From positions 62,001 through 126,000 of the forward strand of contig DXHX01000123.1 in the NCBI GenBank assembly GCA_019113205.1: 64,000 bases of DNA, written 5' to 3'. Within the stretch, counting starts at the first letter, position 1. Each line of letters opens with the position of its first letter. This document shows, in pieces, positions 10,540 through 17,031 of this stretch. The notes beneath the pieces are model-generated. The model did not search any database. It was not told the origin of the DNA and worked only from the letters and a program-made list of their open reading frames with translations. Position numbers and translations under genes: made by a program. The stretch is from Candidatus Pseudogracilibacillus intestinigallinarum. GTDB lineage: Bacteria > Bacillota > Bacilli > Bacillales > Amphibacillaceae.

Positions 10540-10759
10540 AGGTGAGAACTAGATATATAGGGTAAATATAACCATTATGATGATCACATTGAAAAAATCT
10601 TTTATTTGTTGGAGATTAGTTTGATGAAAAGAACTGACATAAATTTTCGTTATGATCGATCATGATTGGTGACAAGAACACTTCGTGTATTTTTGTTTGA
10701 AAACTTCTCCGCTACAAATTAAATATAGTTTATAAAACCTTTTTAATTAGGCGTTTATC

Positions 10760-10787
10760 ACGGGAATGTAGCTATATGCATATATTA
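10760..10787 (+). promoter_or_regulatory. Candidate SigK-type promoter of spoVK
   Basis: AC at 10760-10761, 17 bp, then CATATATTA at 10779-10787 fits the mother-cell SigK consensus (AC, about 16 bp, CATAnnnTA). B. subtilis spoVK is known to be read from successive SigE and SigK promoters. No convincing SigE promoter was found in the 270 bp upstream of the gene. Confidence 0.45.
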
Positions 10788-10809: not shown

Positions 10810-11337
10810 ATGAAGTCAAATATTATTCAAAGTCAACAAGGGAAAATTAATATTGTTTTACAACATGATGTTCAAAAACAGGATCATAAAAATGAAAATT
10901 TAAAAATGATTGATCACTTATTGAAGGACTTTATCGGTTTAGAAGAAGTAAAAGCGATGATAAAAGAAATATATGCGATAAAAATGATGAATGAAAAACG
11001 AAAAATGTACCATTTATCCATTAACGATCATTCTATGCATATGATCTTTCGGGGAAATCCTGGCACAGGGAAAACAACTATTGCTAGAAAACTTGCTGAA
11101 ATTTGTGTGGAATTACAATTATTAGAAAAAGGGCATTTTATTGAAGCGCAACGTGCAGATGTTGTCGGAGAATATATTGGGCAAACAGCGATTAAGACGA
11201 AGCAATTAGTTGAGCGGGCACGTGGTGGCATCTTGTTCATTGATGAAGCATATGCACTGGCACGTGGTGGTGAAAAAGACTTTGGTAAAGAAGCAATCGA
11301 CACTATCGTTAAGCACATTGTTTTAATTTCTATGTAA
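10810..11337 (+). CDS. spoVK: Stage V sporulation protein K, 5' part interrupted by an insertion element
   Basis: SpoVK is an AAA-type ATPase made in the mother cell and needed for spore maturation. Codons 1-166 (to 11307) match the family: Walker A in GNPGTGKTTIARKLA and Walker B in GGILFIDEAYALARGG. After KEAIDTIVK the frame enters foreign DNA and stops after HIVLISM (11335-11337). Sensor 1 and the arginine finger are in the other part at 16633-17031. Joining 11307 to 16633 gives an open frame of 298 codons that reads DTIVKLMEDYRDEF across the joint, exactly where B. subtilis SpoVK has a similar stretch. hflX and ynbB downstream are the normal spoVK neighbours. In the unrearranged form this part cannot make an active ATPase. 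Confidence 0.93.
   Translation: MKSNIIQSQQGKINIVLQHDVQKQDHKNENLKMIDHLLKDFIGLEEVKAMIKEIYAIKMMNEKRKMYHLSINDHSMHMIFRGNPGTGKTTIARKLAEICVELQLLEKGHFIEAQRADVVGEYIGQTAIKTKQLVERARGGILFIDEAYALARGGEKDFGKEAIDTIVKHIVLISM
11298..11325 (+). other. attL junction of the spoVK element
   Basis: spoVK sequence (CGACACTATC) runs into the shared core GTTAA at 11308-11312, then element DNA GCA and the half-site CATTGTTTTA (11316-11325). That half-site is the reverse complement of the one at the other end of the element. Confidence 0.82.
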
Positions 11338-11707
11338 AATAGTTGAGGTTTATTGTACATAATGATTTTTAGGATCAATTAATTCAATATTCACATTAAC
11401 TAGTATATTAATATGATGAAAATGACACAAATGGCCCTGGTATATTAAAAATTTGACTTCATATATTTCTAATTGTCTTTAGCACACCTCCTCTTTTATA
11501 AATGCAATTAATATTTTCGAAAAATGTGTATTGTTTATTCGTTATTTTAATTTGTTTTTATGGAACATATCATGAAGAAAACTTTGAGAGGATTTTTGAT
11601 AAAAAGGAAAACTAAATATTTTCTGTAAATTCAATGATAAATATGTTACAACATAAAATAAATATGATACACTATTTGTGTTTGACAAATAAATGGGAGG
11701 TAAAAAA
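11338..11707. other. Non-coding left arm of the element
   Basis: About 370 bp with no credible gene. The only structure I can point to is a weak promoter-like pair, TTACAA at 11647 and TACACT at 11669 (16-bp spacing), before the symporter gene, and its ribosome site GGGAGG near 11695. Confidence 0.4.
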
Positions 11708-13357
11708 ATGGTAAGTGCAACATGGAATCGGTTATGGGATATACATGAAGAAGCAAAAGAGAAAATCATGTTTTTCGTAAAACCGAACAAGACAAATAAA
11801 GAAAAAGCTACACAAGAAAAATCAAATGAAACAAACGGTGGAAAGGATGGAGGAAAAGGAGATTATAGTTATACGAAAGGACAGCTTATCGGACTTATTT
11901 TAGGACCTTTATTATTTACACTTATTTTACTCTTTTTCAATCCAGCAGATTTATCAAAAGAAGGGATTGCAATTTTAGCTAGTACCGTTTGGATTGCAAC
12001 ATGGTGGATTACAGAGGCGTTGCCAATTCCTGTAACTTCATTACTACCACTCGTATTGTTCCCGATGACGAATGGGTTAGACATTAAACTTACTGCATCC
12101 CAATATGGGGATGAGACAGTATTTTTATTTATGGGGGGATTTATGATTGCCCTTGCGATGGAAAAATGGAACTTACACCGTCGTATTGCTCTGTGGATTA
12201 TTATGATTATTGGAACGAATACAGACCGGATCGTGCTTGGATTTATGGTTGCTACCGGGTTTTTATCGATGTGGATTTCAAACACAGCTACAGCAATGAT
12301 GATGGTACCTATGGGAATCGCAATTACATATCAAGTAGCTGATGCATTAAAAGGTACTGGAGAAGATACATCACGAGGTGGCTTTGGCTTCGGTAAGGCA
12401 TTAATGTTAGCGATTGCATATTCTGCTTCTTTAGGTGGAATTGCAACTTTAATCGGAACACCACCAAACACTTTATTAGCTGGTGCAATGGAAACAATGT
12501 ACGGTATTGAGTTATCGTTTGCTAAATGGATGATTTTCGGTGTTCCATTTGCTTGGATTTTTATTTTTATCGTATGGTTTTATTTAGTGAAAATTGCGTA
12601 TCCAACAAAAGTAAAAAGTTTACCTGGTGGTCAAGAAGTATTTGCGAAAGAAAAGGATAGTTTAGGAAAAGCGTCAACAGAGGAAAAATTAGTATTTATC
12701 ATTTTCATTTTAGCAGCATTTTCTTGGATTACGAGATCATTTTTCTTATCGAAGTTTATCGATGGTTTAAGTGACGGACTTATCGCTATATTCTTTGCGA
12801 TCGTTTTATTTGCGATTCCTTCTCCAAATGTGAAAGGTGGCCGTTTATTAGATTGGGAAACAGCAATGAAATTACCTTGGGGAATTTTATTACTATTCGG
12901 TGGTGGACTTGCAATTGCTGGTGGATTCGTGGAAACTGGTTTATCAGAATGGTTTGGTAGCCAATTGACAGGTTTACAAGGAATTAATTTAATTGTTGTC
13001 ATCATTACCGTTTCTGTTTTAGTACTTGTTTTAACAGAGGTTACATCCAATACAGCAACAGCTTCCATGATGTATCCAATTATGGGTTCATTAGCGATTG
13101 CATTAGGGTATCATCCGTATGCACTTATGATTGCAGCAGGTGTAACAGCATCATGTGCGTTCATGCTTCCAGTTGCAACACCACCAAATGCGGTTGTATT
13201 TGGAACAGGTTACTTACGGATTCAAGATATGATTCGTAAAGGATTGCCGTTAAACTTTGTTGGCATTATTTTAATCACATTATTAATTTATTTTGTTTTA
13301 CCATATGCGTGGGATTTTGATTTAACAGAAATACCAGAAGAATTTTTGGTAGATTAA
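11708..13357 (+). CDS. DASS/SLC13 family sodium-coupled anion symporter (SdcS-like)
   Basis: The 549-residue membrane protein closely resembles staphylococcal SdcS, a Na+/dicarboxylate symporter, in length and in motifs. A charged cytoplasmic N-terminus of about 60 residues precedes GQLIGLILGPLLF. The two family hairpin signatures are seen: SNTATAMMMVP with GTPPN in the first repeat, and TEVTSNTATASMM with ATPPNAVVFG in the second. Start at 11708 follows GGGAGG; the in-frame ATG at 11693 lies before it. It is cargo on the element and convergent with the MFS gene. Sulfate or another anion cannot be excluded as substrate; dicarboxylate is favoured by the SdcS likeness. Confidence 0.88.
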   Translation: MVSATWNRLWDIHEEAKEKIMFFVKPNKTNKEKATQEKSNETNGGKDGGKGDYSYTKGQLIGLILGPLLFTLILLFFNPADLSKEGIAILASTVWIATWWITEALPIPVTSLLPLVLFPMTNGLDIKLTASQYGDETVFLFMGGFMIALAMEKWNLHRRIALWIIMIIGTNTDRIVLGFMVATGFLSMWISNTATAMMMVPMGIAITYQVADALKGTGEDTSRGGFGFGKALMLAIAYSASLGGIATLIGTPPNTLLAGAMETMYGIELSFAKWMIFGVPFAWIFIFIVWFYLVKIAYPTKVKSLPGGQEVFAKEKDSLGKASTEEKLVFIIFILAAFSWITRSFFLSKFIDGLSDGLIAIFFAIVLFAIPSPNVKGGRLLDWETAMKLPWGILLLFGGGLAIAGGFVETGLSEWFGSQLTGLQGINLIVVIITVSVLVLVLTEVTSNTATASMMYPIMGSLAIALGYHPYALMIAAGVTASCAFMLPVATPPNAVVFGTGYLRIQDMIRKGLPLNFVGIILITLLIYFVLPYAWDFDLTEIPEEFLVD

Positions 13358-13390
13358 CATTTATTTTATAGAAAATTTTCATGAAAAAAG

Positions 13391-13484
13391 CTTGGGAGTA
13401 GAATGAAAGTTCATATAAAATGGGAAGGACAATTTATAAGGATGTACTTCCTATTTTATAACAAGAACGGACAAATCTCCCAAG
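13391..13484. terminator. Long nested hairpin between two convergent transporter genes
   Basis: The outer arms CTTGGGAG (13391) and CTCCCAAG (13477-13484) enclose a second stem: ATAAAATGGGAAG (13415-13427) with CTTCCTATTTTAT (13447-13459), one mismatch. A/T tracts lie outside. It probably ends both transcripts and is larger than an ordinary terminator. Confidence 0.65.
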
Positions 13485-13487
13485 ATT

Positions 13488-14681
13488 TTATTTTTTTGTT
13501 TGCATCGTTTGATAGCCTTTTACTAGAAATACATAAATAGCTGGTAAAATTGCTGTAAATAAAATAACTCCCATCCATTGATAACTTTCCCATAAAGGGG
13601 CTAAGGAAGTTGTACCGAGTGATACCCCTAAATAATACGCTACTAAATATAAACTAGAAGCACTTCCTTTATGGTGTGTAGCAGTTTGTGAAACAGTCGC
13701 TGTCGCAAGTGCATGAGAGATGAAAAATCCTAAACAAACAATACATAATCCAATGGTAATGAGGACAAGCGAGCTTCCTAATGTAATCATCATTCCACTA
13801 CATAATATAAACACGCCAGCTACTCTTAAATGGCTTATATTAAATCGCGCAGTTAATAATCCAGCAATAGGTGCACCAATCACTCCTAAACTATAAGCAA
13901 AATAAAAATACGAAATTTCCTTTAAGGAAAGTTCATAAGGTGCTTCTAATAAATGGAATGGTAAATACGTCCACATACCTGTAAAAGCAATTTGTAATAC
14001 CATCCCAAGTCCAAACATTAATAACAGAGTAGGATTTTTAAAATGTACGACAAACCCTTTTAAATCTTCCTTCACCTTACTTTGTACTCCAGTAAAATAA
14101 CGAGATGTTGGTAAATTAAATAAAACGAGTAAAAATGTAACGACTCCAAAAATAGCGAGGATATACATAGTTATTTGCCAAGTATACTGTTCTGCGATAT
14201 ACCCTGTTACAAATCTCCCCATCATTCCACCGATACTATTGCACGATATATATAACGTCGTTGCAAAACCGAAATGTTTTGGGTCAATTTCTTCTGCCAT
14301 ATATGCTAGTGCTGCACTTAATAAGCCAGCTAATAGAAAGCCTTGCACAAATCTTAAAATAATAATAAAAATAAACATTTTTAATAAAGGAATAATAAAT
14401 AACAAAATGGTCGAACAAATAATAGATAAATGAATAAATTTTGTTCGACCATGACGGTCTGACATAAAACCAATTGCTAATAACCCAAAAATAAGTCCAA
14501 TGGTCGTCATAGACATTGCTAAGCTTGCATATGAGACAGATATTTGAAAGCTCTCTGTTAATAAAGGTAGTAAAGGTTGCATGAAATACATCGTTGCAAA
14601 GATAAATAAAGATGCAGCCCCTAAACTTAAAATAATTTGCCAAAATTGAATATGTTTTATTGTGTATTTTTCTGTAATCAT
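13488..14681 (-). CDS. MFS permease, YnfM-like
   Basis: The 397-residue protein has about 12 hydrophobic segments, the MFS inter-helix 2-3 motif GFMSDRHGRTKF, and an N-terminal YFMQPLLPLL stretch typical of the YnfM/arabinose-polymer exporter-like branch. The start ATG has AGGGG upstream. It is transcribed toward the symporter and divergently from the recombinase, so it is cargo of the element. Substrate unknown. Confidence 0.82.
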   Translation of the reverse strand: MITEKYTIKHIQFWQIILSLGAASLFIFATMYFMQPLLPLLTESFQISVSYASLAMSMTTIGLIFGLLAIGFMSDRHGRTKFIHLSIICSTILLFIIPLLKMFIFIIILRFVQGFLLAGLLSAALAYMAEEIDPKHFGFATTLYISCNSIGGMMGRFVTGYIAEQYTWQITMYILAIFGVVTFLLVLFNLPTSRYFTGVQSKVKEDLKGFVVHFKNPTLLLMFGLGMVLQIAFTGMWTYLPFHLLEAPYELSLKEISYFYFAYSLGVIGAPIAGLLTARFNISHLRVAGVFILCSGMMITLGSSLVLITIGLCIVCLGFFISHALATATVSQTATHHKGSASSLYLVAYYLGVSLGTTSLAPLWESYQWMGVILFTAILPAIYVFLVKGYQTMQTKK

Positions 14682-14800
14682 AAGGACCCCTAATTTTCAA
14701 TATGTTCTCTTTTTCTATCATTATATCGTATAAACCTCAATAATGCCTTATTTTCATCTATATAGTCAGAATTTTTATTCATTAGGACAATCCGCCGACT

Positions 14801-14808
14801 CATACAAT
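14801..14808 (+). promoter_or_regulatory. Candidate SigE-type -10 element upstream of the recombinase
   Basis: CATACAAT is an exact match to the -10 consensus of mother-cell SigE promoters. The region 14 bp upstream (TTCATTAGG) is only a weak -35 match. It points toward the recombinase, leaving a leader of about 180 nt with no obvious gene. The rest of the 14682-14993 interval shows nothing else I can support. If correct, the recombinase is switched on in the mother cell after engulfment begins. Confidence 0.5.
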
Positions 14809-14993
14809 AAGAAGGAATGGAGGGGATGGAAGATACGACATAAATATACATTAACAATAAAGGAAAGGAATGTATCTGCTGACATAAGGTATATAAAAAT
14901 GAAAGAAGAATGGAAGGAGTTTTTAAAGGAAGTTTTCATAAAATATAAATATATAACATAGCGTTATCATGATTAAAATGTGAGGTGGATCGC

Positions 14994-16580
14994 TTGATTC
15001 AATTAAGGGGAGGAAAAAAATTACCGTTAGAAAAGGTATATCAATTAGTTGGAAAAATAAACGGTATTATATATGCAAGAGTGTCTACGACTGATCAAGC
15101 AAAAAAAGGATATTCACTTACATCACAAAAACAACTTTGTATGGAACGGGCTAAAACAAAATTTCATTATACGGAAGATGAGTTGATCACTATTATAGAA
15201 GATGGACGAATGGGGGATGATCCAAATCGGCCAGGTTTAAATTATGTATTATATTTACTGGAACAAGGGGTTGGGAAAAAATTAATTATGTTACATCCTG
15301 ATCGACTAACTCGAGACAATACATTACAAGGTATTATTTCTAGAAAAGTGTGGTCAATGGGTGTTGATATTGAATTTGTTGAATTTGATGTAAATCCTAA
15401 TGACCCGGAGTCCATGTTAATGTATAACATACAAGGGTCTATCGCACAGTATAATAAAGCAAAAATTCTGGCGAATGCAAGACGAGGAAGAATTGCAAAA
15501 GCAAAAAAAGGGGAAATCCCAAATTTTAGACGGTTGTATGGTTATCATTATAATAAACAATTAAAAACTGTTGACATTAATATGGAAGAAAAATCGACTT
15601 ATTTAAAAATGGTCGATATGCTACTACAACAAAAAATGAGTTGCAATCAAATCGCACAAACATTAAGTCAAAAAGGTATTGAAGGACCTAATGGATCTAT
15701 ATGGTATCAGTCAACTGTTACAAGGATTTTACGCAATGAAAGTTATACGGGACGATATTATTATGGCAAAACGAAGGTTGTACAAAACAATGGGAAAAAA
15801 GAACAAATTCCAAGGCCTAAAGAAGAATGGATATTAATCGAAATTCCACGAATAATAGACGATATGACATATGACCGAATTCAACAAGCTATTGACCAAT
15901 TTAGAACGAAGCAAGGACGAAAGTCTAATGATTATTTATTAAGTAGAATTGTCATATGTGGTCGATGTCATGGAGCAGTTGGAGCGGGAGTGACATCTAA
16001 AAGTAAACAGCGAATTCTTAAATATTATGTATGTCGCAAAAAACAGTCAAAAGGATATAAAGTCGGTTCAGCAGAAAGTGTACACTATTGTAAGGGAAAG
16101 AACTGGCGTGTAGACATTGTCGATTCGCTCGTGTGGAATTGGTGTAAACATAAAATGCTCCAAATGGATACAGTTAATGAATCTGTTATAAAGACAATGT
16201 ATAAGTTAGAAGAGGATACAACGAATTGGAAAAAAGAAATACACAGTATTAAGGAACGGGTAACACAATTACAAAAAGAACGGAGTAATTATGTCAAACT
16301 TTTTGTAAAAGAAAAAATATCGGAATTATACTTTGATGAATGTGTGCAACAAATAGACAATCGAATTAATAATTATCTAGATAAAGAGCGACATATATAT
16401 GAAAAAAACATAGAAAAAGGAAAGGTGAGTGAAGAAGAGTATATACATGAAAATCGATTATACATCCAAACTTTGATTAAACATACATTAACACCTGAGG
16501 AGAAACGTAGAGCAATTAGTATTTTTGTAAAACAAGTTATTTTATATGATGATGATACAGTTGAAATTATTCCAAGATAA
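14994..16580 (+). CDS. Large serine recombinase, predicted excisionase of the spoVK element
   Basis: The 528-residue protein has the three-part structure of large serine recombinases. The N-terminal resolvase domain has its nucleophile at Ser31 in IIYARVSTTDQ and the conserved HPDRLTRD. A recombinase domain follows (EGPNGSIWYQSTVTRILRN). Then comes a zinc ribbon starting at Cys322/Cys325 (CGRCHG) with later YYVC and HYCKG, and a coiled-coil region (about residues 395-500). Start: TTG at 14994 lies 5-8 nt after GAGGTGG; the GTG at 14985 overlaps that site. It is the last gene of the element, 52 bp from attR, the usual place for such enzymes. Family comparison: B. subtilis SpoIVCA, which excises skin. 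Confidence 0.93.
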   Translation: MIQLRGGKKLPLEKVYQLVGKINGIIYARVSTTDQAKKGYSLTSQKQLCMERAKTKFHYTEDELITIIEDGRMGDDPNRPGLNYVLYLLEQGVGKKLIMLHPDRLTRDNTLQGIISRKVWSMGVDIEFVEFDVNPNDPESMLMYNIQGSIAQYNKAKILANARRGRIAKAKKGEIPNFRRLYGYHYNKQLKTVDINMEEKSTYLKMVDMLLQQKMSCNQIAQTLSQKGIEGPNGSIWYQSTVTRILRNESYTGRYYYGKTKVVQNNGKKEQIPRPKEEWILIEIPRIIDDMTYDRIQQAIDQFRTKQGRKSNDYLLSRIVICGRCHGAVGAGVTSKSKQRILKYYVCRKKQSKGYKVGSAESVHYCKGKNWRVDIVDSLVWNWCKHKMLQMDTVNESVIKTMYKLEEDTTNWKKEIHSIKERVTQLQKERSNYVKLFVKEKISELYFDECVQQIDNRINNYLDKERHIYEKNIEKGKVSEEEYIHENRLYIQTLIKHTLTPEEKRRAISIFVKQVILYDDDTVEIIPR

Positions 16581-16622
16581 TTAGTTGATGTGTTTAGGTG
16601 AACGGACACAATACATGTTAAA

Positions 16623-16648
16623 TAAAACAATGGTTAAATTGATGGAAG
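16623..16648 (+). other. attR junction of the spoVK element
   Basis: The element half-site TAAAACAATG (16623-16632) abuts the core GTTAA (16633-16637), followed by spoVK sequence ATTGATGGAAG. In the circular form the two half-sites flank the 8-nt spacer GTTAAGCA symmetrically, so the central AA is the predicted crossover dinucleotide. Confidence 0.82.
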
Positions 16649-17031
16649 ACTACAGAGATGAATTTATTCTTATATTAGCAGGCTATTCTAATGAAATGGA
16701 TTCTTTTTTACAGACGAATCCTGGATTACGATCACGCTTTCCGTTTCAAATTAATTTTCCAAATTACACGATGGATCAACTATTAGATATTTTAAAAATG
16801 ATGGCAAAAGAACGAGATTATCGGCTTACAAATCGTGCATTATTAAAAGTAGAACAACAGATTGAAATTTGTTTACGAAATGAACCATTCACTTTTTCAA
16901 ATGCACGATACATTCGTAATATATTGGAAAGAGCAATTCGACAACAAGCAATGCGAATGATGCAATATGTCCATTATTCTGAAGACCAATTAACTATTTT
17001 ACGAGCGGATGACTTTACGTTTCATAAGTGA
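16633..17031 (+). CDS. spoVK: Stage V sporulation protein K, 3' part
   Basis: From GTT AAA TTG ATG the frame encodes the C-terminal 132 residues of SpoVK: sensor 1 in FILILAGYSNEM, the arginine finger in NPGLRSRFPF, and the helical lid. In the genome as sequenced, the only upstream start (ATG 16585) is in the element and has no good ribosome site, so this half is probably silent until rearrangement. hflX starts 67 bp further on. Confidence 0.92.
   Translation, partial: VKLMEDYRDEFILILAGYSNEMDSFLQTNPGLRSRFPFQINFPNYTMDQLLDILKMMAKERDYRLTNRALLKVEQQIEICLRNEPFTFSNARYIRNILERAIRQQAMRMMQYVHYSEDQLTILRADDFTFHK

Follow-up and report, generated by a model that had tools for sequence, protein, structure and literature searches.

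Within the 64,000-nucleotide stretch of DNA analysed here (the window), which comes from a spore-former, the sporulation gene spoVK is split in two by a 5325-bp element carrying its own large serine recombinase. The element is best understood, with a probability that we put at roughly 80%, as a skin-like one, in which a SpoIIID/sigma-E promoter would serve a small open reading frame (ORF) and the recombinase, excision would take place in the mother cell before spoVK is expressed under sigma-K, and the forespore would retain the element. In other words, spoVK is probably repaired in the mother cell while the insert is kept in the spore. No paper describing an insertion in spoVK was found in the literature searched, the coverage of which was partial, and the gene appears to be a new and recurrent target for a known kind of element.

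The spoVK-intervening element

The 5′ part of spoVK (10810-11312, + strand) runs as far as the recombination core and comprises codons 1-168, and the 3′ part occupies 16638-17031 (+), both parts being open and mutually in frame. The element itself extends, with no strand assigned, from 11313 to 16637 and is delimited by two copies of the core GTTAA, the attL core at 11308-11312 (+) and the attR core at 16633-16637 (+). When the flanks were joined at GTTAA by script, a computed product and not an observed excision, an unbroken SpoVK frame of 298 codons was obtained. The circle junction is the palindrome AAAACAATG-gttaagca-CATTGTTTT, and this intact att palindrome fits the expectation for the attP of a serine integrase. 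The gene is whole in the same-genus genomes with a clear spoVK and intact in other genomes too, and there are also genomes in which the same integrase family has split it at the same codon.

The content of the element is confined to two transporters, the small ORF and the recombinase. A sodium/anion symporter (DASS, PF00939; 11693-13357, +) is followed by an MFS transporter (13488-14681, -) that is divergent from the recombinase unit. No phage structural or replication genes were found in the 5.3-kb element, which is therefore not an intact SP-beta-like prophage; what it does share with skin-type elements is an interrupted sporulation gene, a site-specific recombinase of its own, and a frame restored on paper by precise removal. 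The recombinase (14994-16580, +; 528 aa; PF00239, PF07508, and PF13408) is full length and retains the invariant residues of its family, its TTG start at 14994 having been chosen from the ribosome binding site and the alignment of homologues.

A separate observation concerns a double-AAA SpoVK-like gene, within which a short stretch on the opposite strand (G024:C190:9006-9110) matching SpoVK residues 169-203 was found; the match begins at the codon where the elements enter spoVK.

The putative recombinase promoter

An exact sigma-E -10 pointing towards the recombinase, accompanied by a weak -35, had been reported at 14801 in the first-pass annotation. Both descriptions are borne out: CATACAAT occupies 14801-14808 (+) and precedes the TTG start by 193 nt, and the best -35 heptamer, TCATTAG at a spacer of 15 nt, matches 5/7 positions with the core ATA broken. 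On its own, an eight-letter motif in an A+T-rich genome carries little weight, and CATACAAT by itself was dropped as evidence because it occurs at chance frequency (7 in the window against 5.17 expected). The promoter claim is rescued by a SpoIIID box, overlooked in that annotation, which stands where a -35 belongs: TAGGACAATC (14783-14792, +), 18 bp from the -10 when measured start to start. The box has zero mismatches to the SpoIIID consensus WWRRACARNY, which Halberg and Kroos are said to have given in 1994, so that the sequence holds what is looked for in a SpoIIID-activated sigma-E promoter, namely that consensus near a sigma-E -10.

The pair of box and -10 is found once in the window, where 0.025 would be expected, and arises in 5/20000 shuffles of the intergenic region 14682-14993. 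A looser form of the pair gives 11 matches genome-wide, among which the 14801 site alone lies outside frames of at least 120 codons, and the genome offers no second promoter with this layout to serve as an internal control. Immediately upstream of the recombinase there is neither a terminator nor a convincing sigma-A promoter, the sole sigma-A-like match on the + strand (14694-14721) being no better than chance and preceding the sigma-E site. A further candidate, CATAAAAT at 14937, downstream of the promoter, was rejected for want of a counterpart in the homologues.

Control of the recombinase by sigma-E, as originally suggested, remains the best reading of the sequence, with the amendment that sigma-E would not act alone, since the SpoIIID box, at a fixed and conserved distance, takes the place of the poor -35. 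The switch of the recombinase is thus best read as sigma-E plus SpoIIID, and the promoter probably drives the small ORF and the recombinase together.

Relatives of the recombinase and conservation of the promoter pair

Among the closest relatives, the SpoVK 3′ part lies directly after the recombinase in B. subtilis DE0224 (as labelled), B. pumilus, B. glycinifermentans, a Paenibacillus, and Ammoniphilus. The same arrangement is seen in most of 22 viral contigs, SP-beta-like prophages included, and in 10/15 further loci of the class. Integrases approximately 51% identical to the window recombinase are encoded by the SP-beta-like phages SPR, Goe14, SPbetaL2, and BUCT082/083. Close members are rare, being found in 2/397 genomes drawn from the order and 1/159 from the family with the window's own genome counted, and the elements in spoVK vary in size from ~3.7 kb (G886) to ~150 kb. 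Small spoVK-intervening elements of ~3.7 to 15 kb were noted elsewhere in the class in G641, G648, G688, G707, G744, G831, and G886 (L121-L126, L129, L130), with two apparently tandem element copies in G688.

Every one of the 22 loci of Bacillus spoVK-type prophages, which represent six integrase clusters 51-100% identical to the window recombinase, has the box and -10 paired at 18-19 bp; this conservation is partly confounded, since in most phages the last part of a recU-like frame extends over the pair and the stretch thus also encodes the end of that protein. The window and L052 (57% identity) are both without the recU frame and nevertheless retain the motif. Taken alone, the window-L052 intergenic alignment is no more than mildly significant (11/300 shuffles). 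The pair is absent from the more distant spoVK-type integrases of the Paenibacillus and high-GC groups, which are at most 44% identical.

In six high-GC members (L121, L122, L123, L125, L126, and L127), the small ORF has in front of it, ~200-270 nt upstream of the recombinase, a site resembling CATAC(A/G)C or AATACACA, with no recognisable SpoIIID box alongside; this site may be a variant mother-cell -10. Where spoVK is split by a prophage of the Paenibacillus type, the prophage brings with it a complete, diverged copy of the gene (G064 C2:458632-459456 for L057; G646 C1:4070278-4071129; and L105, L106, and L104 in the IMG/VR records behind L087, L089, and L091, respectively), and in these same prophages the integrase is not preceded by the SpoIIID/sigma-E pair.

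The same layout was scored, as a SpoIIID box followed at 17-20 bp by a CATA -10, in 32 distinct upstream regions of skin-type recombinases, a separate large serine recombinase group that inserts in sigK. It was present in 16/32 of these regions (13 at exactly 18 bp) against an expectation of 0.47, a count that is blind for all but the two skin-type loci in which the layout was first spotted, and in 0/19 control recombinases, these being relatives' recombinases not located in spoVK. Many of the skin-type contigs stop just past the recombinase, so that a location in sigK is demonstrated in 12 cases and no more than likely in others; among the 12 with a sigK fragment in the contig, the layout was found in three, at 2 mismatches, where 0.18 would be expected. 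The skin-type loci L162-L164 and L168-L203 have in common the 18-bp spacing of box to -10 and a small ORF before the recombinase.

Proposed timing of excision and of spoVK expression

The sigma-K-like promoter of spoVK that had been placed at 10760 proved to be real, running as GGCGTTTATCAC then CATATATTA over 10750-10787 (+), with the -10 at 10779-10787, and is conserved upstream of the relatives' spoVK. There it takes the form GGCRTTTGTCACA ... CGTATANTA; 16/35 passed the strict pattern, and most of the misses listed are one base off. In B. subtilis, spoVK has a sigma-E promoter (P1) in addition to a sigma-K promoter (P2) (PMC517825); a search of the window for a counterpart of P1, an additional sigma-E promoter of spoVK dependent on SpoIIID, gave none. 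The genome possesses sigE, spoIIID, and a sigK-like gene. Sigma-E and SpoIIID precede sigma-K, all three being mother-cell factors, and excision first with spoVK later would therefore be the natural order.

The proposed sequence of events would begin with sigma-E, and then SpoIIID, acting in the mother cell on a single promoter composed of the sigma-E -10 and the SpoIIID box as its -35, from which the small ORF and then the serine recombinase would be transcribed. The recombinase so made would excise the element at GTTAA and rejoin spoVK in frame, whereupon sigma-K would drive the late spoVK promoter. The forespore would keep the element.

The small ORF

The small ORF (14833-14961, +; 43 codons including the stop region) opens with ATA after a strong Shine-Dalgarno sequence, GGAGGGG, and ends ~33 nt before the recombinase. 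Of the standard start codons, only an internal ATG (the first in frame, at 14899) follows the promoter. A 48-aa ORF is kept between promoter and integrase in the Bacillus phages; a profile of these phage proteins reached the window small ORF at a non-significant E of 0.25, which leaves its identity as a phage-type recombination directionality factor (RDF) unproven, and PHROGs gave no useful result for it. Tentatively, and by its position only, the small ORF is a candidate RDF. In L053, a terminator-like hairpin (718-749) separates the small ORF from the integrase, and similar hairpins can be seen by eye in L052, L054, and L070. The window element has no such hairpin, and its small ORF and recombinase gene may have become joined in a single transcript.

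Alternative explanations

A different division of labour is conceivable, in which the recombinase is constitutive and sigma-E/SpoIIID governs the directionality factor only, the 14801 promoter serving the small ORF alone. SprA of SP-beta and CD1231 of C. difficile set a precedent for it, and the Bacillus phage homologues, in which small ORF and recombinase stand further apart (57-88 nt) and L053 has its terminator-like hairpin, would lend themselves to such an arrangement. The window element does so less readily, its gap being short and free of a terminator and the lone sigma-A-like match being a chance-level one upstream of the sigma-E site, and for this element we hold a constitutive recombinase to be unlikely.

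Much lower still is the probability assigned to a decayed element, with a promoter match arising by chance, no excision, and a broken spoVK. The small size of the genome (2.5 Mb) and the chance frequency of the octamer would agree with decay, but a full-length recombinase with its invariant residues, an intact att palindrome, two spoVK parts open and in frame, a conserved promoter pair, and the presence of the sporulation regulators all argue against it. Comparably improbable is that the recombinase promoter is read by sigma-K, which would make excision late and coincident with spoVK expression. The window -10 is compatible with both consensus forms, since CATACAATA also fits CATANNNTA; the sigma-K reading was nonetheless rejected on spacing and homologues, as the AC is missing 16-17 bp upstream of the -10 and the homologues have CATACATTG, a fit to sigma-E but without the TA ending of sigma-K.

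Comparison with known gene-intervening elements

The closest parallel is the skin element of B. subtilis, in which sigK is interrupted and the recombinase gene spoIVCA, a member of the sigma-E regulon, is almost fully SpoIIID dependent (PMC517825). Its order is a PE+SpoIIID promoter, skr (RDF, 64 aa), and spoIVCA, the promoter lying >200 bp upstream (PMC6957869). The window element resembles skin in its split sporulation gene, frame restored on paper, small ORF just before the recombinase, and identical order, with a predicted sigma-E/SpoIIID promoter ~190 bp upstream as compared to ~200 bp in skin. It differs in its target, spoVK, in its recombinase, which belongs to another group near the integrases of SPR-type SP-beta-like phages, and in having 5.3 kb with two transporters and zero phage genes instead of 48 kb.

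SP-beta, which is inserted in spsM, pairs a large serine integrase (SprA) with a small RDF (SprB), as the window element may do, and its sprB has a perfect sigma-E/K -10 and a poor -35, for which SpoIIID was proposed as a helper by the authors (PMC4191935); unlike in the window element as read here, the SP-beta integrase is constitutive and the RDF gene lies at the prophage's other end. The gin element in gerE of Bacillus cereus ATCC10987 (GirC/GirX) is also a non-phage element in a mother-cell gene, with a recombinase expressed in sporulation as that of the window element would be, but is distinguished by its gerE target, its 28.6 kb, and its three recombinases (PMC5595907). In the skin element of Clostridioides difficile (CD1231/CD1234), the RDF is under sigma-E/SpoIIID control, whereas the recombinase is constitutive and the SpoIIID site is centred 46 bp upstream of the transcription start site beside a separate -35 (PMC5025042).

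Implications

If the skin-like reading is true, spoVK would be added, as a recurrent one, to the targets of gene-intervening elements, and the seemingly bad -35 of such recombinase promoters would be explained by SpoIIID substituting for it at a fixed distance. The spacing of box and -10 would, moreover, provide a simple signature with which to find developmentally timed excision in genomes. Taking spoVK and sigK jointly, a broader proposal can be made, to which we give slightly less than even odds: that spoVK is the preferred target of one integrase family across the class Bacilli, that the unrelated spoVK and sigK integrase groups have converged on the 18-bp geometry of box and -10 that times excision, and that the Paenibacillus-type prophages, lacking the promoter, bring a complete spoVK of their own. 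Should this be true, timed excision and gene replacement would be two answers to one conflict.
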